Shown: positions 28,885 to 42,204 of the stretch, piece by piece | Layout: each line of letters opens with the position of its first letter | How positions within the stretch are numbered: position 1 is the stretch's first letter | Assembly (NCBI GenBank): GCA_017652805.1 | Contig: JAGCAH010000180.1 | Location: 1-42,204 of the forward strand | Reading direction: 5' to 3' | Origin: Thermoguttaceae bacterium | GTDB lineage: Bacteria > Planctomycetota > Planctomycetia > Pirellulales > Thermoguttaceae | Length of the DNA: 42,204 nucleotides | Program-made: the position numbers and the translations under genes | Notes under the pieces: model-generated | Database searches by the model: none | What the model saw: the letters and a program-made list of their open reading frames with translations, nothing else | Told to the model about the DNA's origin: nothing

Positions 28885-31176
28885 ATGCGGTTCATAAAAA
28901 CATTTTTCTTCGCGGTCTGTCTGACAATTTCGGCGCTGGGTGCGCGGGCCGCGTCGGCCGAAGAGGACAATTTCTTCGCCGATGATGAAACTCCCGCCGC
29001 CGAAGCGGCCGAAAACGCCGCCCCTGCGGAAAACACCCCGGCCGAAAATACTGCGGCGGAAAGCGCTCCGGCGAACGCGGGCGAGGATTTCTTCGCCGAC
29101 GACGCCGACGCCGAAGCCGCGCCTGCCGAGTCGGACGCGTCCGATTCCGAATCGGAGAAGAAGGGTTCGCTCATTTCCGGAATCCTCTCCCGCTTCGAGA
29201 AGAACGATGACGGAAAATCGGACTACCGCACACCGATCGAGACCGTCCTCCCCCGAGGCGCGCTGATGCTGGCGGCGACCTCTCCGGTCAGCACGCTGAA
29301 CGAAAACATCTCCCTCCTCCTGAAAGGGCTCGGGCTCGGAAAACTCTCACCGACCAACTGGATCCGCCTCTCTCCCTACGGGAAGGCGTTTAAGTTCGTC
29401 GACCAGAGCCGTCGGCTCGGGATCGCCTGGATCGCTCTCGACGAAAAGACCCCGCCGAAGATGGTTCTCTTCATCCCGGTCCGCCGCTATCTTCCCTTTG
29501 TTTCGGAGCTGGGGGCCGACGTCGCGTCATACGCGTCGGATGCCGACGTTCCGGCGGGCACCCTCCTTCCGCTGAAAAAGCCGACGGGCGGATTCGCGTT
29601 TCAGAAGAACGGCTACGCCTGTCTCCTCAAGGGCGAAACTCCGCCGCCGGTCGACAATCTCCTCGCCGCCCCCGCGGTCGGAACCTCCTTCTACGGCGGT
29701 CCGGGTCTTGTCGACGCCGATCTCCGCCTGGCGGTCACTTCCTACGGGATCCGCCGCCTCATCGACCTGGCGTCGTCGGCCGACTCGGCGATTCTGGAAA
29801 TACTTCCGAGCGTTCTCGAACAGATCAAAGCGTCGAATCCCGACTTCGACTTCTCGGTCGACGACGCCATTCCTCAGGTAAACAGCTTCGCCGACTGGGT
29901 GCTCGCCAATCTCCGGCAGCTCCTCCTCGAGGTGAAGCTGACCCCCGGTGACCTTCTCGCCTCGGCGATCCTCGTCCCGAAGAGCGGGACCGAACTGGCG
30001 GCGCAGATCCAAAATCGCGGAGGGCCCGACATTCCGACCCTCCTCGACCAGAAGGAATTCCTCAAAGTCCTTCCCGAGCAATACGCGCCGATTTCGGGCC
30101 AGACCGATCTCCTCCCCGAGTTCGCCGCGAAACTCGAGGCCCCCTTCAACCGCGTTCGGCATATCGAGTACTCGATCGGCGTTCCGCGCGAAGGTCAGCT
30201 CCTGGCCGAGTCGTGGGCGTTCTTCCTCGAAGTCAACAACAGCGACAAGTTCATCGAAGAGCTGGTCGTTCCGAAAGCTCGTCTGGTCGGCGGGCATATC
30301 GGCGCCGAAAAGATGAGCGACATCGCCGGGCAGATTTTGGGAAGCATGTCGGCCCGCCGCCGTTCCACCGGCCGCCGCCCCCTCTTCTTCTCGACGCCGC
30401 AGGAAGCGGCCGAAGTCGGCGCCGGACTCGGCGAACTGTTCGGCCAACAGATCGGCAGCCGAGTGGGGGAAGAACAGGCGCTCAAAAAGTATGACTTCGA
30501 GGGATTCCCCCTCTACGTCTCGGACATGAAAACGTATATCGAAGAGATGCGGAAGATCCGCGCCGAAGAAAGCGGCGAGCGGCAGCGTCCGACGCCGCCG
30601 CCGATTCTCTCTCCCCGCGAATCGATGCAGACGATCCTGACCAGTCTCCTTTCGGGGCTCGAGACCGGGTCGATCGACGGAATCATAAACGGTCAGATCG
30701 CCGCCCGGGGCGGGGATCCCGACGCCTCGCCGATGCCGGCGGTCGAGAACCTGATCCTGGTTCTCGACCGAACCCACATTCTGATCGTGCCGGGGGACCG
30801 TGATCTCCTGAGCGCGGCGCTGGCGCGGTGGCGCGATTTCGTCGACCGGCAGGGGGAGCCCGGCCAGGCCGACGCCCCCTGGCGCGCGCGGCGCGATCTC
30901 CTCTACGGGGCGATGGCCGGCGCGCAGACGCAGATCCTCCGCAGCGCGGCCCTTTTCGACCTTTCGGCAACACGCGCCGAGGCGAAATACCTGCAAAAGA
31001 ATTACGGGATCGACCTTCCTCCGACGTTTGATCCGCCGGTCCCTGCCGATCTGGCCGAACCCCTCTTCGTCGGAACCAACACGCCGGGGGCGGGGCTCCT
31101 TTACGCGGTCTTTCCGAATGAATTTCTCAAATTCCTTATGGAAAGTCATCAGAACGCCTCCAAAGAAAAGAAGTAA
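28885..31176 (+). CDS. Large secreted protein of unknown function
   Basis: This 763-residue protein has a signal peptide (FIKTFFFAVCLTISALGARAASA). An acidic, Ala/Pro/Glu-rich region (about 26-95) contains two copies of a motif resembling EDNFFADD/EDFFADD. A long soluble part follows (about 110-755), with no membrane segment I can see. RGALMLAATSPVSTLNENISLLLKGLGLG begins the folded part, and there is a Pro-rich loop (RPTPPPILSPRES) near 568-580. I recognise no catalytic motif or named domain. It sits between dhaL (38 bases upstream) and an LsrF-type aldolase (55 bases downstream) on the same strand, although an exported protein is an odd member of a cytosolic sugar operon. I assign no function. 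Confidence 0.83.
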   Translation: MRFIKTFFFAVCLTISALGARAASAEEDNFFADDETPAAEAAENAAPAENTPAENTAAESAPANAGEDFFADDADAEAAPAESDASDSESEKKGSLISGILSRFEKNDDGKSDYRTPIETVLPRGALMLAATSPVSTLNENISLLLKGLGLGKLSPTNWIRLSPYGKAFKFVDQSRRLGIAWIALDEKTPPKMVLFIPVRRYLPFVSELGADVASYASDADVPAGTLLPLKKPTGGFAFQKNGYACLLKGETPPPVDNLLAAPAVGTSFYGGPGLVDADLRLAVTSYGIRRLIDLASSADSAILEILPSVLEQIKASNPDFDFSVDDAIPQVNSFADWVLANLRQLLLEVKLTPGDLLASAILVPKSGTELAAQIQNRGGPDIPTLLDQKEFLKVLPEQYAPISGQTDLLPEFAAKLEAPFNRVRHIEYSIGVPREGQLLAESWAFFLEVNNSDKFIEELVVPKARLVGGHIGAEKMSDIAGQILGSMSARRRSTGRRPLFFSTPQEAAEVGAGLGELFGQQIGSRVGEEQALKKYDFEGFPLYVSDMKTYIEEMRKIRAEESGERQRPTPPPILSPRESMQTILTSLLSGLETGSIDGIINGQIAARGGDPDASPMPAVENLILVLDRTHILIVPGDRDLLSAALARWRDFVDRQGEPGQADAPWRARRDLLYGAMAGAQTQILRSAALFDLSATRAEAKYLQKNYGIDLPPTFDPPVPADLAEPLFVGTNTPGAGLLYAVFPNEFLKFLMESHQNASKEKK

Positions 31177-32309: not shown

Positions 32310-33800
32310 ATGGATCAGGATCAAGTTAAAAAAATCGTCGAACAGCTTCATTTAGAGAGAAAAATCCCTAAAGAGAAGGTCTTCGGCATTCTCGAAGAGG
32401 CGATGATGATCGCGGCCAAACGGCACGCCGGTCAGGAATCCGAAATCGCCGTCCATATTGACCGTGACACCTGCGCGATCTCCGTCTTCCGTGACAACGT
32501 CCCCCTTTCGGACGCCGAAATCACCGAGCGCCTCGGAGCCCAGACGGCGCGCCAGGTCATCACCCAAAAGATCCGCGACGCCGAAAAGGACATGATCTTC
32601 GAGCGCTACAACGAAGACCTCAACAACCTGATCAGCGGAACGGTCCGCCGGGTCGAGCGGGGCGTGGTGATCATCAGCCTTCAGGAAAACATTGAGGCGA
32701 TCCTCCCGCGGAGCGAACAGATTCCGGGCGAATCGTTTCGAGAGGGAAACCGTGTAACGGCCCAGATTATTGAGGTCAACAAGAACGGGAACAACGCCCG
32801 CATCCGGATCGTCTTAAGCCGGAACCGTCCGTCGTTCCTCCGGAAACTCCTTGAACAGGAAATCCCAGAAATCGCCGACGGGATCATCACCATCAAAGAA
32901 CTCAGCCGCGACCCCGGTCACCGCGCCAAGGTGGCGGTCGCCTGCACCGACCCGCACCTCGACCTGGTCGGCGCGTGCGTCGGCAGCCGCGGTTCGCGGA
33001 TCCGCGCGGTGCGCGAAGAGCTCCCGAACAACGAACAGATCGACATCATCCCCTGGGTCGCCGACGACGCCGAGTTCATCAAAAGCGCGCTCCAGCCGGC
33101 CGAAATCCTCGAAGTCATTCCCTGCCCGCTTTTGGGCCGCGCCATCGTCCTGGTCGACAAAGAAGAACGTTCCAAGGCGATCGGTCGGAAAGGGCAGAAC
33201 GTCCGCCTGGCGACCCGCCTCTGCGGCTGGGATCTCGAAATCCTGACGCAGGAAGAGCTCCAGTCTGTTCTGGACACCGCGGTCGATCAGTTCAAGTCGA
33301 TCCCCGGGATGACCGACGAAGCCGCCGAGGCGATCGTCGCCGCCGGCCTGACCACCTACGACGACATCGCGCTGAGCGATCCGGCCGAACTGGCCGAGCT
33401 GGGGAAATTCTCCGAAGAAGACGCTCAGAAGATCATTGACGAGGCGGAACGCCGCGCCGAACTCGACACCGCCCTCCAGGCCTCCGAAACCGCGGCGGCC
33501 GCCGCCGAAGAGGCCGTCCGCGCGGCCGACGAGGCAAGGAGGACCGTTGCCGCCGACGTTCCCCACGCCGAGCGATGCGCCCGCGACGCACGCGACGCGG
33601 CGGCCCGCGCCCGTGAAGCCGCAAGCGAAGCCGCCAAATCGGCTGAAATGGTCGACAGCGCTCAGGTGGCCGAGGCTGCCCAGGCCGCCCAGACGAGCGC
33701 CGCCCTTGCCGCTCGCGCCGCTGACACCGCCCGCGCCCTGGTCGACTCGGCGCGTGATGACGACCGCCACCGCGGTCAGAGTTTCTCCCGAAACGCGTAA
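32310..33800 (+). CDS. nusA: Transcription termination/antitermination factor NusA
   Basis: The 496-residue protein has the NusA layout: an RNA-polymerase-binding N-terminal domain (1-105), an S1 domain (about 106-172, SGTVRRVERGVVIISL), KH1 (GSRG at 225-228) and KH2 (GRKG at 292-295), then one helix-hairpin-helix-like unit (about 325-385). The last 110 residues (about 386-496) are very Ala/Arg/Glu-rich and predicted helical, unlike the acidic repeats of E. coli NusA. It controls pausing, termination and antitermination by RNA polymerase. It heads the nusA-infB-rbfA cluster, but rimP, usually just upstream, is absent. Confidence 0.97.
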   Translation: MDQDQVKKIVEQLHLERKIPKEKVFGILEEAMMIAAKRHAGQESEIAVHIDRDTCAISVFRDNVPLSDAEITERLGAQTARQVITQKIRDAEKDMIFERYNEDLNNLISGTVRRVERGVVIISLQENIEAILPRSEQIPGESFREGNRVTAQIIEVNKNGNNARIRIVLSRNRPSFLRKLLEQEIPEIADGIITIKELSRDPGHRAKVAVACTDPHLDLVGACVGSRGSRIRAVREELPNNEQIDIIPWVADDAEFIKSALQPAEILEVIPCPLLGRAIVLVDKEERSKAIGRKGQNVRLATRLCGWDLEILTQEELQSVLDTAVDQFKSIPGMTDEAAEAIVAAGLTTYDDIALSDPAELAELGKFSEEDAQKIIDEAERRAELDTALQASETAAAAAEEAVRAADEARRTVAADVPHAERCARDARDAAARAREAASEAAKSAEMVDSAQVAEAAQAAQTSAALAARAADTARALVDSARDDDRHRGQSFSRNA

Positions 33801-33917: not shown

Positions 33918-36890
33918 TTGATTCGAATCTACGCACTGGCCAAAGAGCTGAAGACCGACAACAAAGAACTGGTTGACATTTGCCAGAAGATCGGTCTGTC
34001 CGATAAGCGATCCGCGCTTGCCGGTCTGACCGACGAGGAAGTCGCTCTGGTAAAGGACTACATTCAAAAGGCCTCGTCCCAATCGGCTCAGGCGCCTTCC
34101 GGCCCGAGCAGTTCGGCGCCGATGCAGCGTCCGAGCATCCCCTCCCTCCAGACCGGAAAGGTTCCGGTTCTCAAGCCGGTTCGAACCCTCAAACGCCTCG
34201 GCGACTCCGACTCGTCCAAGCCGAGCGCCATCAAGACGATCTCTGCCAGGCAGGCCGAAGAACCCGCCAAGCCGGAAGAGCCCGCCAAGCCGGAAGAGCC
34301 GGCCCCCGCCGCCGAAACAGCTCCGCCGGTCGAAAAGACCGCGCCTCCCAAGCCGGCCAAGCCCGCGGCTCCCGCCAAACCGGAGGCGAAACCCGAAAAA
34401 CCGCGCGGACTCGGTCCCCTCGGGAATATGCTCCGTTCGAGCAAACAGCGCCCTCAGCAGGCCGAACCGACCGTCCCTCCCGCCGAACCGGCGGCTCCGG
34501 CTCCCGAAGCGGCCGAAGAGAAGCCGCACAAAAAAGAGCTCTCGCCTCTTGAACAGGCTCGTCTGGCGGCTCAGCGCGAAATGACGCAGCGTACCCGGGT
34601 TCTGGGAGCGGCGTCCGCCGACGCGGCGAAGCCGAAGAAATCCGAAAAGACCGAAGAAAAATCCCGCGCCAAAAAGTCGCTCGGGATCCACCTCGCTCCC
34701 GTTCCGACCGCCCCCGCCAAAGCGGCCCCCGCGGCCGACGAAAACGAACCGGCGCCTCAAAAGCCGGAGGTACGTTTCGTTCCATCTTCGGGGCGCGAAA
34801 AGTTAGACAAAAAATCGGTCTCCCCCCTGGCCAGCCGTCTCGGTAAGAGCGACGGCGACAAAGGGGACCAGCCCCGTCCCGAACGGCGGAAGTTCATCGG
34901 CTCGATTGACGACGAAATCAACGAACTGCGAAACGCCGCCAAAAAGGGAGGGAAAAAACGCAAGGGGGAGAAGCGTCCCGACGAGTCCGCTCAGGTTTCC
35001 CGCAAACGGCGCAACACCAACGATTTCACCCACCTCCACGACGACGACTCGTTCGGCGTCTATCAGCGCCAGCTCCGTAAAAAGACCGCCAAGGCGAAGC
35101 CCTCGACCCTGCCGCGCAAAGGGGATATCGTCATTCAGCTTCCGTGCACCGTCAAAGATTTCGCCGAGGCGACCGGTATTCAGGCGGCCGTGATTATCAA
35201 GAAGCTCATGGAGCTCGGCTATATGCTCATGATCAACAATCCGCTGGACGGCGAAGCCGCCGAGCTGTTGGTCGAGGCGCTCGAACTGAAAGCGGTCGTG
35301 AAAAAAGAGGAGTCGCTCGAAGAACAGTTCGTCGATTCGGTGGTCGATCAGGTCGATCCCCCCGAGACGCTCAAACCCCGCGCGCCGGTCGTCACTTTCC
35401 TGGGACACGTCGACCACGGGAAGACCTCGCTTCTCGACCGGATTCTGCATATGAACGTCGTTTCCGGCGAAAAGGGGGGTATCACGCAGCATATCCGTTC
35501 CTACCGGATCTCCACCCCTCAGGGGGATGTCACCTTCGTCGACACCCCGGGTCATGAGGCGTTTACCGAAATGCGCGCCCGCGGGGCGAACTGCACCGAT
35601 ATCGCGGTGCTGGTCGTCGCCGCCGACGACGGCGTCATGCCGCAGACCGAGGAAGCGATCAGCCACGCCAAGGCGGCGGGGGTTCCGATCGTCGTCGCGC
35701 TCAACAAGATGGACCTTCCCGGCGTCAGCCGCGACCGCGTGGTGCAGGAGCTGGCGGCGAACGACCTGATGCCGAGCGAATGGGGAGGGGATGTCGAAAT
35801 CGTCGAGACGAGCGCCGTGACCGGTCAGGGGATCGACACCCTGATGGAGACCCTTCTGATGGTCGCCGAACTTCACGAACTCAAAGCGCGGCCCGACCGC
35901 TCGGCGACGGGAGTGGCGATCGAGTCCTCGCTCGAGCCGGGTCAGGGGGTTCTCTGCACCCTCCTGGTTCAGAACGGAACGCTTCACAACGGCGATATCG
36001 TCCTGTGCGGGAACGCCTACGGGAAGGTTCGCGCGATGTTCGACACGCTCGACCCGACCAAAGAGCTGACCGAAGCGCCTCCGAGCACGCCGGTGAGCGT
36101 CCTCGGGCTCGACGTCGCGCCGGGGGCGGGGAGCAGTTTCGTTGTTCTCGACGACATCTCCGTCGCCCGTCAGATCGCCGAAGAGCGGACCGAAATCATC
36201 CATCAGCGCGAACTCAACGGGGGCGAGGAACACGTCACCCTCGAAAGCCTCAAAGCCCGGCTCGACTCCAAGTCGCAGCAGACGCTCAACATCATCATCC
36301 GCACCGATGTGCGCGGTTCGATTGAGGCGATCCGCAAAGAGCTCTCGAAGCTCGAACATCCCGAAGTCAAAATCAAAATCCTCCAGGCCTCGGTCGGGGG
36401 GATCACCGAAGCCGACGTTCTTCTGGCCGACGCTTCGGACGCCATCATCGTCGGGTTCAACGTCGTTCCCGACGAACTGGCCCGGATCACCGCCGAAAAG
36501 AAAAAGGTTCAGATTCGCCGCTACGATATCATCTACAAACTCTCCGAAGATATTAGGGCGGCGCTGGAAGGAATGCTCAAGCCGGCCGAACAGGTCAAAG
36601 AGCTCGGCCGCGCCTTTGTTCAGCAGATCTTTGTCATCAGCCGTATCGGAACGATCGCCGGATGCCGTGTCCTTTCGGGGACGATCGAACGCGACTGCCG
36701 CGTCCGCCTGATCCGCGACAGCCGGATCATCGGCGAGTACGTCCTCGAGACCCTCCGGCGCGAAAAAGACGACGCGCGCGAGGTGCGCGAGGGTTACGAG
36801 TGCGGGATCAAGCTCAAGGGCTTTAACGATATCAAAGAGGGCGACTACTTCGAGGCCTATAAGATTGAAGAAGTCGCGCGCACCCTCTGA
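33918..36890 (+). CDS. infB: Translation initiation factor IF-2
   Basis: A TTG start at 33918, with AGAGAG upstream, gives 990 residues beginning [10 protein letters not shown], the usual IF-2 N-terminus. A long Pro/Ala/Lys/Glu-rich linker (about 60-390) includes repeated KPEEPA units. The G domain has G1 GHVDHGKT at 496-503, DTPGHEAF at 542, and NKMD at 596, followed by domains II-IV ([12 protein letters not shown] and the C-terminal fMet-tRNA-binding part with GTIAGCRV). IF-2 delivers initiator tRNA to the ribosome. It lies 117 bases after nusA and 42 before rbfA. Confidence 0.98.
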
Positions 36891-36932: not shown

Positions 36933-37346
36933 ATGGCATCGAGAAGAACGCTGAAAGCCGCCGCCGCCATCCGCGAAGTGGTCGCCATGTCGCTTCTCTC
37001 CGACCTGAAAGACCCGCGCGTCAGCCTGGTGACAATCACCTCGGCCGAGGTGGCGCAGGATATGCGTTCGGCCAAGGTCTTTTTCACCGTTCTGGGGAAC
37101 GACCCGGTCAAAGAGAAGCTCGCTCTTTCGGGGCTTCGAAGCGCCGCGGGCTACCTCCAGCAGAAGTGCGCCAAACGGATCGAAACGCGCTACACGCCGA
37201 AACTCATCTTCGAGGTTGACGAGGGAGTGAAGAATCTGGCGCGTGTGACCGAGATTCTCGAAAAAGAGCGCCGCAAGTCCTCCTCGGACGGAGCCTCCGC
37301 CGACGTCGACTCGGATCTGAACGAACCGGATATTCGGAGCGTTTAA
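36933..37346 (+). CDS. rbfA: Ribosome-binding factor A
   Basis: The 137-residue protein has the KH-like RbfA domain: IREVVAMSLLSDLKDPRVSLVTIT, then a conserved VFFTVLGND segment and a basic RIETRYTPKLIFEVDEGV. RbfA helps 16S rRNA processing and 30S assembly. The C-terminal tail (about 112-137) is Ser/Asp-rich. It follows infB, as is usual, with AAGGA before the ATG. Confidence 0.95.
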   Translation: MASRRTLKAAAAIREVVAMSLLSDLKDPRVSLVTITSAEVAQDMRSAKVFFTVLGNDPVKEKLALSGLRSAAGYLQQKCAKRIETRYTPKLIFEVDEGVKNLARVTEILEKERRKSSSDGASADVDSDLNEPDIRSV

Positions 37347-37377
37347 CCAATTTTGATTTTCTCAACAGGAAATATTT

Positions 37378-38916
37378 ATGGGATCTTCGCCGCGCAACAC
37401 TTACAAAAGCCTCTACCAACATCTGCAGAAGGAATTTCGTTCGGGCGTCATCTCTCTCCCCGACGACCGTGAAATCCTTGTTCAGCTGATCTACTCGGCG
37501 CTCCTCGAAAATCGACCGGCCGCGGTCGCCCTGGAAGCGTTTGAAACCATTGAAAACTCGTTTATCGACTGGAACGAACTCCGCGTCTCGCGCGCGCGGG
37601 AACTCTGCGACCTCCTCCCGATGCTGAGCGACGCGGCCAACAGCTGCGAACGCCTCCGCCAGACGCTCCAAGTCATCTTCCAGGCGACGTATAAATTCGA
37701 CCTGGAGGAATGGCGCGAAAAGGGGGAAGACGCTTTCAGCGACTACCTGGGAACGATTCCCTACGTCACCCCCTTCATGAAGAGTTACACAATCGCCGTG
37801 GTCTTTCGCAAGAGAGTCGTTCCGCTCGACGAGGGGGCTCTGCGCGTACTCCGCCTCCTCGATTTGGTCGAAGTCGACGAAGAAAACCATGAAGTTCCGA
37901 TTGGACTGGAACGCGCCTTTTCGAAGACCGACATGCCCGCGTTCGCCAAAATGCTCCACGAACTGGGGGCGATGCTGATGGACGAGTCGACCTCGATCCG
38001 CGCCCGAAAGATCTTAAAGGCGGTCGATCCCGACTCGGCGCAGCGGAGCGATCTTCCGCTGGTCGAGACCGAAGAACTCGATCCGTTCCAAATCGCCCGT
38101 GAGCTGGCGAACAAGCAGTCGAATCGCCCGATGAAAATCAGTTTTGACGCCGATATGGAAGACGTCGAAGAAGAAGACTTCACAGCTGAGGACGATTCTC
38201 TCGAAGAACCTCTCCCGATGGAAAACGCCGACGAATCCCCCGACGATGACGACGATCTTTTCGACGCTCCCGCGCCGAAAAAGAAGGGCGAAAAGAAACC
38301 GAAGGATCAGGAACCGGCTCAGGAGAAGGCGAAGAAACCCGCCGAAGAGAAGGCGCCCGCCAAAGAAAAAGAACCGGCCGAGGTGAAAAAGCCCGCCAAG
38401 GCGAAGAAACCCGCCGAAGAGAAGGCGCCCGCCAAAGAGAAAGAACCGGCCGAGGTGAAAAAGCCCGCCAAGGCAAAGAAACCCGCCGAGGTCAAAGCGC
38501 CCGCCAAGGCAAAGAAACCCGCCGAGGTCAAAGCGCCCGCCAAGGCGAAGAAACCCGCCGAGGTCAAAGCGCCCGCCAAGGCAAAGAAACCCGCCGAGGT
38601 CAAAGCGCCCGTCAAGGCAAAGAAACCCGCCGAAGTGAAAGCGCCCGTCAGGGCAAAGAAGCCTGCCGAGGTCAAAGCGCCCGCCAAGGCAAAGAAACGC
38701 CCCGAGACCAAAGTGCCCGCCAAGGCGAAGAAGCCCCCCGAGGTGAAAGCGCCCGCCAAGGCAAAGAAACGCCCCGAGACCAAAGTGCCCGCCAAGGCGA
38801 AGAAGCCCCCCGAAACGAAGAAGCCGGCATCGAAATCGCCGGTGAAACCTTCGATCCAGAAAACGCTCTTCTCCAAAGGGGTCTCCAAAAAGAAGAGCGG
38901 CGGCAAGAAAAAGTAA
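37378..38916 (+). CDS. HhH-GPD-like protein with a histone-H1-like Lys/Ala/Pro tail
   Basis: The 512-residue protein has two parts. Residues 1-230 fit the all-helical endonuclease III (HhH-GPD) fold by eye. From the hairpin start to the catalytic Asp, the segment IPYVTPFMK...VPLDEGALRVL has the same spacing (24 residues) as LPGVGRKTANV...AVDTHIFRV of E. coli Nth. The Asp (Nth Asp138) is kept, but the lyase Lys120 position is Phe, and there are no Fe-S cysteines. An acidic linker (about 255-298) follows. The tail (about 300-512) is tandem Lys/Ala/Pro repeats, as in histone H1-like DNA-binding tails. It is between rbfA and yebC. It may bind DNA or RNA; enzymatic activity is doubtful. The fold assignment is inference. 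Confidence 0.8.
   Translation: MGSSPRNTYKSLYQHLQKEFRSGVISLPDDREILVQLIYSALLENRPAAVALEAFETIENSFIDWNELRVSRARELCDLLPMLSDAANSCERLRQTLQVIFQATYKFDLEEWREKGEDAFSDYLGTIPYVTPFMKSYTIAVVFRKRVVPLDEGALRVLRLLDLVEVDEENHEVPIGLERAFSKTDMPAFAKMLHELGAMLMDESTSIRARKILKAVDPDSAQRSDLPLVETEELDPFQIARELANKQSNRPMKISFDADMEDVEEEDFTAEDDSLEEPLPMENADESPDDDDDLFDAPAPKKKGEKKPKDQEPAQEKAKKPAEEKAPAKEKEPAEVKKPAKAKKPAEEKAPAKEKEPAEVKKPAKAKKPAEVKAPAKAKKPAEVKAPAKAKKPAEVKAPAKAKKPAEVKAPVKAKKPAEVKAPVRAKKPAEVKAPAKAKKRPETKVPAKAKKPPEVKAPAKAKKRPETKVPAKAKKPPETKKPASKSPVKPSIQKTLFSKGVSKKKSGGKKK
38329..38820 (+). repeat. In-frame 36-bp tandem repeats encoding Lys/Ala/Pro units
   Basis: A unit of 12 codons (AKKPAEVKAPAK and variants) repeats about 13 times inside the coding region above, with variants (EEKAPAKEKEPA, RPETKVPA). 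Copies in the middle are nearly identical at the DNA level, which suggests recent expansion by slippage or unequal recombination. Copy number may vary between strains. Confidence 0.85.
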
Positions 38917-38956: not shown

Positions 38957-39712
38957 ATGTCAGGTCATTCCCACTGGGCAGGTATTAAACACAAAAAAGC
39001 GCTGGTCGACGCCAAGCGGGGTAAACTTTGGAGCAAGCTGGCCAAGGCGATCATCATCGCGGCCAAGCACGGCGGCGGGGATCCGGCAAACAACATCCGT
39101 CTGCGTACTGCTATCGAAGAGGCGAAAGCGGTTTCGCTGCCGAAAGACAACATCGCCCGCGCCATCAAACGCGGAACCGGTGAAGGGGAAGCGGTCGAAT
39201 TCGAGGAACTCCTCTACGAGGGTTACGGGCCGCACGGCGTGGCGGTGATGGCGGCAAGCCTGACCGACAACCGGAATCGTACCGCCCCGGAAATCCGCAA
39301 GATATTTGAGGTACACGGCGGAAAGCTCGGCGCGACCGGGTGCGTCGGATGGAACTTCGACAAGAAGGGCGTCTTCTTCATCCCGAAAGATCAGACTGAC
39401 GAAGAAAAACTGATGGAAATCGCCCTGGAAGCGGGAGCCGACGATATCGAGGAACAGGGAGAGGGATTCCAGGTCACCTGCTCCCCCGAATCCTACGACG
39501 CGGTGGCGGAAGCGATCGAGGCGAACAACCTCCATCCCGAAAGTTCTGAAATCACGATGGTGCCGAAAGATACGGTCGATATTACCGACCTGTCCGCCGC
39601 GCGCTCGGTGATGCGTCTGCTCGATGCGCTCGACGAACACGAAGACATTCAGACCGTTTCGTCAAACGTCAATATCCCCGACGAAATCATGGAGCAGATC
39701 GAAGAGGAATAA
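38957..39712 (+). CDS. yebC: YebC/PmpR (TACO1) family protein
   Basis: The 251-residue protein starts SGHSHWAGIKHKKALVDAKRG, the conserved family N-terminus. KHGGGDPANNIRLRTAIEEAK, LPKDNIARAIKRG and YEGYGPHGVAV are further family signatures. Family members act as DNA-binding regulators in some bacteria or help ribosomes translate proline stretches (TACO1/YebC type). The latter is attractive next to a gene with a Pro/Lys-rich tail, but that is inference. AAGGAG lies just upstream of the ATG. Confidence 0.97.
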   Translation: MSGHSHWAGIKHKKALVDAKRGKLWSKLAKAIIIAAKHGGGDPANNIRLRTAIEEAKAVSLPKDNIARAIKRGTGEGEAVEFEELLYEGYGPHGVAVMAASLTDNRNRTAPEIRKIFEVHGGKLGATGCVGWNFDKKGVFFIPKDQTDEEKLMEIALEAGADDIEEQGEGFQVTCSPESYDAVAEAIEANNLHPESSEITMVPKDTVDITDLSAARSVMRLLDALDEHEDIQTVSSNVNIPDEIMEQIEEE

Positions 39713-39718
39713 AAAAAC

Positions 39719-42204
39719 GTGCCGGCGACTGACCCTGCGAGCGCCCCTTCATTCCGGAACTCTTCCGAATCGGCGATCCCCGGTGGTCCCCTTCCGGCCT
39801 CTGTCCCCGCGGCGGCCGCCGGTATTCTGATTGACGCGTTGTGGGCTCCCCTGATCTTTTTTTGGGGGAGCCTTTTTCTTTTCGCCCTGTTTCTTTTCGC
39901 CGCGGGATCGTTTGCGCGTCTGTATAACAGAATGGCCCGGCGCCGCAAGACGCTTCTCTTTTTCGGCGTCATGCTCGGGGTCTTTTCCTTCTTCGGCTTC
40001 TGGCATCAGCTCCGCTGGTCGTATTTCCCGAAAGACGAGATCGGACTTCAGATCCCCGCCGGGAATATGCCCGCCGAAGTGGAGGGGGTCGTTCGGTCAA
40101 CCCCGGTCTTTTACGAAAATCCGTTTGACGAGTCGGGCGGCGTGACCCTGGTCGAAATCGAGGCGTTCCGACTCCGAAACCTGGGGGTGTGGTCTTCCGC
40201 CAGCGGCGTGGTCATCGTCCGGGGAAAAGGGGATCTGACCTCCATTCAGATCGGCGAGGCGGTCGCCGTCACGGGAAAAATCGCGCATATCCGCGGGCCG
40301 GAAAATCCGGGCGGGGTTGACCGAGCGGCGCGCGCCCGGGCGCGGCGGATTCTGACGACGGTCAGCGGCGCGTCGATTCGAAAAGCGGCGCGCCTCCCCG
40401 GAATGCCGCGGTATACGGTTCTTGCCGCGGTCGAACGGATCCGCCTGACGGCGCGCGATCTTTTCACGGCACGTCTCTCTCCCCGAAACGCCGCGGTGGC
40501 CTCGGCGGTGATCCTCGGTCTGCGGAACGATCTGGACGAGGAGACGGTCGATCTGTTCCGGCAGACGGGAACCTCGCATCTGATTTCGGTCTCGGGCCTG
40601 CACGTTTCGCTGGTGGCGATCTTCCTCTTTCTGGCGATCCGCGCGCTTCACCTCCCCCACTCGGCGCGGGCGCTTCTGGCCGCCGCGGCAATCCTGGCGT
40701 ATGTCTTTCTGGCGGGAGCGCGGGCGCCGGCGATCCGCGCGGCGGTTCTCTTTTGGGTTCTGTGCCTGTCGGTTCTCTTCCGGCGGAAGACGGTTCTTCT
40801 CAACTCGTTCGTCATCTCGGCGCTGATCCTTCTTCTGATCAGTCCGGCGAACCTCTTTCAGCCGGGAGTCCATCTTTCGTTCCTGGCAACCGGCGTCTTC
40901 CTCTGGGTTCTTCTGCCGAACCGGGATCCGAATCGGCAAAGCGCCTTTTTGAGGCGTCTGCGGATCCGCCTTCGCCTTCTTCACCTGCAATACCGCTCCC
41001 GACCGCTGGCGGCGCTTTCTCTGCGGCTGGGCGAGGTCGTCCTGGGGAAGTTTTTCCGCATCATGGCGGCGTCGTTTTTGATTGAACTGATCCTTCTGCC
41101 GGTCATCTTTACGCACATCCATCTCTGCACCCCGCTGTCGTTTCTGATCAATCCGATCATCTGGATTCCGTTCGAACTGGCGCTGATTCTGGGGATTCTC
41201 CTTCTCATCGTCGGGCAGATTCCCCTTCTCGGCGCGGCGGCGGGATGGCTCGCCGACGGGACGTTCTCGTTTCTGGTCTGGCTTCTGAACATATCGAAGT
41301 CGGTCCCCTTCGTCTGCTTCCATGTGCCGGGCCCGTCGCTCTGGTGGGTCTTGGGGTTCTACATCCCCCTCCTCTTCTGGACCCTCTTTCCGCGATACCG
41401 TCCCCGTCTGAAAATGATGACCCTCTGGACGTTCGTCTGGCTCGCTGTCGGCGCGGCGGCGATCGGGATAAACTCTCTTGTTATACACTCGCGTCAGCGG
41501 GTCGACATCGAGATCCTTTCGGTCGGACACGGCGAGTCGGCGCTGATTCTTTTTCCGGACAGAACGGTTCTGTATGACTGCGGCACGATGGGAGACGGCG
41601 CGCGCGCCGGACGGACGACCGCCGCGGCGCTTTTTGCGCGCGGGCGCGTCTCGGTCGACCTGGTCTTCCTCTCGCACGCCGACGCCGACCACTACAACGG
41701 TCTTTTGGAGCTTCTTGACAAGGTCCGTATCGGCCGGGTCATAACGCCGCCGAACTTCTTCGAAAAGGAGAACGCCTCCCTGACCGAACTGCGGGAAGCG
41801 CTCGAAAGAAAAAAGGTGCCGATCGTCTCGGTCGGCGCGGGGGAAGACCTGACCCCTTACGGTTTCGGGGAACTGGATATTCTCCATCCGGAAAAAGAGA
41901 CGGCCTCCGACGCGACGAACGCCGAAAGCCTGACCTTGAGCCTGACCCATCTCGGCCGGCGCGTCCTGCTGACCGGCGACCTCGACACGCCGGAACCTCC
42001 CCCTTTCCTGCGGACGCCCCGACCCGCGTATGATCTGATCACCATTCCGCATCACGGGGGGCATTCCCGCGCGACCGAGCCTCTTTTGAGAAGACTGACC
42101 CCCTCCTACGCGGCGGTGAGCGAAGTCGACGGACGCCTTTCGGCCGAGACGCTCGACGAGTGGCGCTCGTGGGATCCGGATCTTGCGGTTCTCTCGACCG
42201 GCAG
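39719..42204 (+). CDS. comEC: ComEC/Rec2 DNA-uptake membrane protein, partial (cut by window edge)
   Basis: A GTG at 39719, seven bases after the yebC stop and with AGAGGA upstream inside yebC, opens a frame that has no stop up to the window edge (828 codons). Hydrophobic segments at about 45-70 and 78-95 are followed by the OB-like domain (VEGVVRSTP and after), the competence domain with SGTSHLISVSGLHVSL-like TGTSHLISVSGLHVSL, several membrane helices, and then an MBL domain with LSVGHGESALILF, LSHADADHYNG and TIPHHGGHS. This is the full three-part ComEC architecture. ComEC passes single-stranded DNA through the inner membrane in natural transformation. The last part of the MBL domain and the stop lie outside the window. 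Confidence 0.92.
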   Translation, partial: MPATDPASAPSFRNSSESAIPGGPLPASVPAAAAGILIDALWAPLIFFWGSLFLFALFLFAAGSFARLYNRMARRRKTLLFFGVMLGVFSFFGFWHQLRWSYFPKDEIGLQIPAGNMPAEVEGVVRSTPVFYENPFDESGGVTLVEIEAFRLRNLGVWSSASGVVIVRGKGDLTSIQIGEAVAVTGKIAHIRGPENPGGVDRAARARARRILTTVSGASIRKAARLPGMPRYTVLAAVERIRLTARDLFTARLSPRNAAVASAVILGLRNDLDEETVDLFRQTGTSHLISVSGLHVSLVAIFLFLAIRALHLPHSARALLAAAAILAYVFLAGARAPAIRAAVLFWVLCLSVLFRRKTVLLNSFVISALILLLISPANLFQPGVHLSFLATGVFLWVLLPNRDPNRQSAFLRRLRIRLRLLHLQYRSRPLAALSLRLGEVVLGKFFRIMAASFLIELILLPVIFTHIHLCTPLSFLINPIIWIPFELALILGILLLIVGQIPLLGAAAGWLADGTFSFLVWLLNISKSVPFVCFHVPGPSLWWVLGFYIPLLFWTLFPRYRPRLKMMTLWTFVWLAVGAAAIGINSLVIHSRQRVDIEILSVGHGESALILFPDRTVLYDCGTMGDGARAGRTTAAALFARGRVSVDLVFLSHADADHYNGLLELLDKVRIGRVITPPNFFEKENASLTELREALERKKVPIVSVGAGEDLTPYGFGELDILHPEKETASDATNAESLTLSLTHLGRRVLLTGDLDTPEPPPFLRTPRPAYDLITIPHHGGHSRATEPLLRRLTPSYAAVSEVDGRLSAETLDEWRSWDPDLAVLSTG

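Follow-up and report, generated by a model that had tools for sequence, protein, structure and literature searches.

The closest described relatives of the protein family dealt with here, referred to as family X, are DNA glycosylases and endonucleases of the HhH-GPD fold. Endonuclease III-1 of Deinococcus radiodurans (PDB 4unf, 8a5f) shares this fold with family X over the whole domain and is its best sequence-profile relative; its Fe-S motif is also found in distant members of the family. In the glycosylases of the MIG, MBD4 and MutY type, the catalytic Asp is essential. These monofunctional HhH enzymes have in common with family X both the fold and the replacement of the lyase Lys by a non-basic residue (PMC8307549). 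A further comparison is offered by the factors involved in the maturation of the 30S subunit and in translation. RimM and RbfA of Escherichia coli contribute to adjacent steps in the maturation of the 30S subunit (PMC8201178), YebC is a translation factor (PMC12234827), and rimM and rimP exhibit a conservation higher than 90% in non-CPR bacteria, according to a survey that does not mention planctomycetes (PMC12641178).

The window, i.e., the whole stretch of 42,204 nucleotides that was analysed, belongs to a Thermoguttaceae bacterium (Planctomycetota) and harbors, on the forward strand, the gene order nusA-infB-rbfA-X-yebC. The nusA gene (32310..33800, recognized by Pfam) is followed by infB (33918..36890, identified from the sequence and used as neighbour query), rbfA (36933..37346, PF02033), the family X gene (37378..38916) and yebC (38957..39712, PF01709 and PF20772). 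The X gene starts with ATG, encodes 512 amino acids and is separated by 31 bp from the end of rbfA and by 40 bp from the start of yebC; the AGGA located at 37367..37370 (forward strand) is its likely ribosome-binding site. The dN/dS of the N-terminal domain, calculated inside the genus, is 0.10-0.19, that is, the domain is under purifying selection; since, in addition, homologs were retrieved in 58/60 of the nearest genomes, the open reading frame represents a real gene. Two other features of the window can be mentioned, namely a ComEC/Rec2-like competence gene (39719-42204), which starts straight after yebC and continues past the end of the window, and an ORF of 763 amino acids (28885-31176) without any Pfam match.

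The relationship with the HhH-GPD proteins is hardly visible in a single sequence. The window protein alone gave only low-complexity or sub-threshold matches against Pfam and NCBIfam and did not reach the gathering score of PF00730, a model that was matched (at E values up to 0.01) by 2/48 diverse members of the family. The first clear homology was obtained by comparing a family profile with the PDB: the profile built on 30 relatives matched Deinococcus EndoIII-1 with an E value of 2e-10 and plant ROS1 with 2e-4. The DR2438 glycosylase model NF053634 was matched by 34/35 members of a mostly Fe-S-bearing set, with scores lying far under the model cut-off (63.7 vs. 400 bits in the case of L092, a distant relative adjoining rpsP). 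The AlphaFold model of the N-terminal domain (residues 1-224, 37378..38049, forward strand) showed a pLDDT of 94.2 and a pTM of 0.90, with an input alignment of 74 sequences. Its top PDB matches were EndoIII, ROS1, MutY and OGG1 (VIA-align Z 14-17), the superpositions having an rmsd of about 4-6 Å across 170-220 residues, and Foldseek aligned it to 8a5f with an E value of 7e-6; according to the three programs, the domain has the two-domain, all-helical HhH-GPD (endonuclease III) fold. The same fold was predicted for the Fe-S-bearing L092 (pLDDT 88.6; Z 17.4 to EndoIII-3). The original prediction had proposed by eye that the protein is derived from an HhH-GPD repair enzyme, indicating structure prediction and fold search as the way to check it, and these returned the HhH-GPD fold rather than another one. 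The profile match, the predicted structure and the Fe-S-bearing relatives together support the descent of family X from a DR2438-like endonuclease III and rule out a chance resemblance to EndoIII. In a phylogenetic tree, family X forms one side of a branch, and the opposite side comprises 18 planctomycete proteins that are genuine EndoIII, MutY or relatives of these (SH-aLRT 88), a separation that is suggestive, not conclusive.

Compared to EndoIII-1 and to NF053634, the members of family X are devoid of the lyase Lys, do not have a fixed Asp, have lost both the hairpin and the S-x-Q-T loop, and exhibit a long basic tail and a neighbourhood of ribosomal genes. The differences in the key residues were quantified on the columns of a family alignment comprising 139 sequences. 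The position of the lyase Lys is occupied by Phe133 in the window protein (37774..37776), as the original prediction had read it, and by F in 92, Y in 27, H in 6 and K in none of the 139 sequences. At the position of the catalytic Asp, the window protein retains Asp151 (37828..37830); the residue is present in 113/139 sequences (81%), and the other 26 carry N, T, S, G, P, H or E. On a tree from which the alignment columns close to the Lys and Asp sites had been excluded, the loss of Asp required about 12 changes, at least 6 of them forced by well-supported branches. The spacing between hairpin and Asp, which had also been noticed from the sequence, is indeed preserved: in the alignment with EndoIII-1, Phe133 and Asp151 are 18 residues apart, the same distance existing between Lys120 and Asp138, which occupy these positions in E. 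coli Nth. The hairpin itself (residues 126-140, 37753..37797) is degenerate, I-P-Y-V-T-P-F-M replacing L-P-G-V-G-x-K-T, so that the window protein reads P-Y-V-T-P-F where G-x-G would be expected, and the first Gly is found in just 67/139 sequences. In a similar way, the S-x-Q-T lesion-recognition loop of EndoIII reads L-E-N-x (residues 40-46, 37495..37515). A different motif, D64-W-N-E-L-R-V70 in the window protein (37567..37587; all these features lie on the forward strand), represents the signature of the family: D64, N66 and R69 of this D-x-N-E-x-R motif are each found in 139/139 sequences, and among 48 members chosen from a wider diversity the conservation of these positions is 90% or higher. 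The 4Fe-4S motif C-x6-C-x2-C-x5-C is absent from the window protein, as previously noted, and from its order, and it is kept in 57/136 members, most of them from Isosphaeraceae, Gemmataceae or deeper lineages; mapped onto the tree, its states require three changes.

An aromatic residue (Phe or Tyr) in place of the Lys does not by itself prove an altered catalysis, because monofunctional glycosylases lack the Lys as well. The repeated loss of Asp, which sets family X apart from the MIG, MBD4 and MutY type enzymes, together with a motif fixed elsewhere in the protein, argues for a change of function; on the other hand, Asp being kept in 81% of the sequences, glycosylase activity is possible in many members. 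In any case, the catalytic site has undergone erosion, and the description of the window protein as catalytically altered can be extended to the whole family, in which Lys is never present and Asp has been lost repeatedly. As a side observation, L186 of the deep-lineage sample is a genuine EndoIII-like gene, whose product carries D-W-D-A-V-R and an intact L-P-G-V-G-P-K-T hairpin; it is possible that it pictures the ancestral state of family X.

Downstream of the folded domain, the window protein contains an acidic low-complexity linker (38074..38268, forward strand), followed by a Lys/Ala/Pro tail (38326..38813, forward strand) made up of 13.6 copies of a 36-bp (12-amino-acid) tandem repeat with KAKKPAEVKAPA-like units, recognized by repeat analysis and by a low-complexity match to Pfam DUF1388. 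The Lys/Ala/Pro repeat tail described in the original prediction is therefore real; its likeness to histone H1 stands as far as composition is concerned, the Lys-, Ala- and Pro-rich repeats being shared with histone H1 and with bacterial Lys/Ala/Pro tails, and does not extend to the globular part, which, according to AlphaFold and the fold search, is HhH-GPD, the H1 winged-helix domain being absent from the window protein. The last 30 residues have a pI above 9 in 155/169 proteins of the family, and many family members, even short-tailed ones, carry at their C-terminus a conserved basic peptide of a few residues (KRKPR, KKPR, KPKSR; KPR or KSR). In some members, the tail is short (about 20-40 residues past the Fe-S motif in Gemmataceae), and the folded domain is always kept.

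Family X is widespread in Planctomycetota, a profile of close relatives having matched 234/294 genomes sampled across the phylum. A higher figure (286/294), given by a profile of diverse members (A2), was rejected as a measure of prevalence, because the weak matches examined, which came from the families f62, f93, f70, f81, f33 and f61, were genuine EndoIII or MagIII-like proteins. Since no member was found in the f62 genomes, probably corresponding to Brocadiales (anammox), nor in a few other families of the sample, family X is not universal in the phylum. When the signature was searched for in every bacterial and archaeal species representative, 310 relatives were disclosed; among the best 80 of these, nearly all carry planctomycete titles, e.g., Rhodopirellula baltica, Singulisphaera acidiphila and Limnoglobus roseus, and a few bear vague or other-phylum titles ("bacterium", "Proteobacteria" or "Gammaproteobacteria" MAGs), the assignment being based on the record title alone. 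The possibility that X is the sole EndoIII of its genome is ruled out, genuine PF00730 genes being present in the genome of the window and, in two to four copies, in 15/15 other genomes tested. Within the genus of the window, one genome (G001) harbors a homolog sharing only 33% identity, far more diverged than those of the other members. Literature searches returned nothing published on family X.

The location of the X gene between rbfA and yebC, which had been regarded as unexpected, turned out to be the rule in the phylum. The gene is immediately preceded by rbfA in 28/30 close relatives, in 21/28 other representatives of the class and phylum and in 69/80 named loci; it does not always occupy this place, the same arrangement being present in 13/40 deep-lineage loci picked for family diversity. 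In another 13/40 deep-lineage loci, as well as in 3/80 named loci and in five loci recovered later, the gene lying immediately upstream is rpsP (bS16), often following ffh; the remaining 14/40 deep-lineage loci have neither rbfA nor rpsP in this position. On the 3' side, yebC is a frequent neighbour. Overall, at least one of rbfA, rpsP, ffh, infB or yebC lies beside X in 165/178 loci, which do not represent 178 independent events because they are related to one another. The partners change between lineages (rbfA, ffh-rpsP, yebC), but X has each time stayed with translation genes. As a control, none of 56 genuine HhH-GPD loci of the same phylum adjoins rbfA, rpsP or yebC, and 2/56 are located near an Ffh-like gene.

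On the whole, the data are probably best explained if family X is a glycosylase-derived pseudoenzyme involved in 30S assembly or translation, able to bind rRNA or the pre-30S particle via its fold and its basic tail. The DNA-repair chemistry of a DR2438-like endonuclease III scaffold has eroded, and the scaffold has probably been put to a new use, most likely in the assembly of the 30S ribosomal subunit or in translation. The folded domain would contact rRNA or the pre-30S particle through the conserved D-x-N-E-x-R face, the Lys-rich disordered C-terminal tail would bind the same targets, and the protein might act together with or next to RbfA. The putative inclusion of X among 30S assembly factors is suggested by gene neighbourhood. 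The computation demonstrates the fold, the descent, the loss of Lys, the recurrent loss of Asp, the basic tail, the purifying selection and the neighbourhood, and what we infer comprises ribosome or RNA binding, the exact step of assembly and the function of the tail.

The neighbourhood could also reflect a frozen operon, and the next most likely interpretation, albeit an unlikely one, is that X is an active monofunctional DNA glycosylase (of MIG, MBD4 or DR2438 type) maintained in such an operon, with Asp as the sole catalytic residue and a tail that binds DNA. The intact HhH-GPD fold, the Phe or Tyr occupying the Lys position in 119/139 sequences, in line with the non-basic residues found there in such HhH enzymes (PMC8307549), the Asp retained in 113/139 and the fact that the best family-model match, NF053634, is a monofunctional glycosylase model would all fit this idea. 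It is difficult to reconcile, however, with a gene that was retained through about 12 losses of Asp, with the disappearance of the hairpin Gly-x-Gly and of the S-x-Q-T loop, with an invariant motif placed outside the catalytic pair, with scores far below the family cut-offs and with the genuine HhH-GPD repair genes that remain in every genome tested.

Even less likely appears a role, itself one form of the idea of the original prediction, as a nucleoid-associated, histone H1-like protein, whose HhH-GPD domain would bind DNA without cutting it and whose Lys/Ala/Pro tail would compact it. The nucleoids of PVC bacteria do look condensed (PMC3177640), the terminal 30 residues are basic in most members (155/169 with pI above 9) and the window tail consists of the 12-residue KAP repeat; nevertheless, the likeness is compositional only, the genes flanking X are ribosomal and translational rather than chromosomal, and it is the folded domain, not the tail (short, e.g., in Gemmataceae), that is always maintained. 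The least probable of the interpretations considered is that X has no functional link with its neighbours, being embedded in an old operon kept by chance, with a function unrelated to ribosomes or DNA. The operon to which infB and rbfA belong is among the most stable ones known in bacteria, and passengers can therefore persist in it; but X moves between lineages, each time joining translation genes, and no such placement is observed for the genuine HhH-GPD genes.

The proposed involvement of X in 30S assembly or translation is also in line with a gap in the planctomycete set of maturation factors. RimM (PF01782) was detected in 0/294 planctomycete genomes, with 10/10 bacterial controls being positive; RimP_N was found in 2/25 genomes and was absent from 23/25, and RbfA was found in 284/294. 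This lack of RimM and, for the most part, of RimP is apparently unreported. In bacteria, rimM usually follows rpsP, and X takes this place, after ffh-rpsP, in deep lineages, lying elsewhere beside rbfA. There is no detectable sequence relation between X and RimM or RimP, and the window protein does not match PF01782. Moreover, the complete f62 genomes (L247, L248, L251 and L252) exhibit the order ffh-rpsP-trmD-rplS without rimM and without X. Since f62 possesses neither gene, a simple replacement of RimM is not established, and a perfect one-for-one replacement is unsupported; that planctomycetes lost RimM and that most of them use this remodelled, catalytically retired DNA glycosylase instead is a tentative idea, which we regard as rather doubtful.

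The normal location of X at the side of rbfA in the phylum is what makes this protein, missed by family tools such as Pfam, an interesting one. The absence of RimM and, for the most part, of RimP raises the issue of how Planctomycetota mature their 30S subunit. This issue can be addressed directly in Planctopirus limnophila, a species with established genetics and an essentiality map based on transposon insertions (PMC10632474). The occurrence of a retired repair fold beside ribosome-assembly genes across the majority of a phylum would represent a striking case of protein reuse and, if the interpretation proposed here is true, a DNA-repair fold would have been turned into a ribosome-assembly factor.
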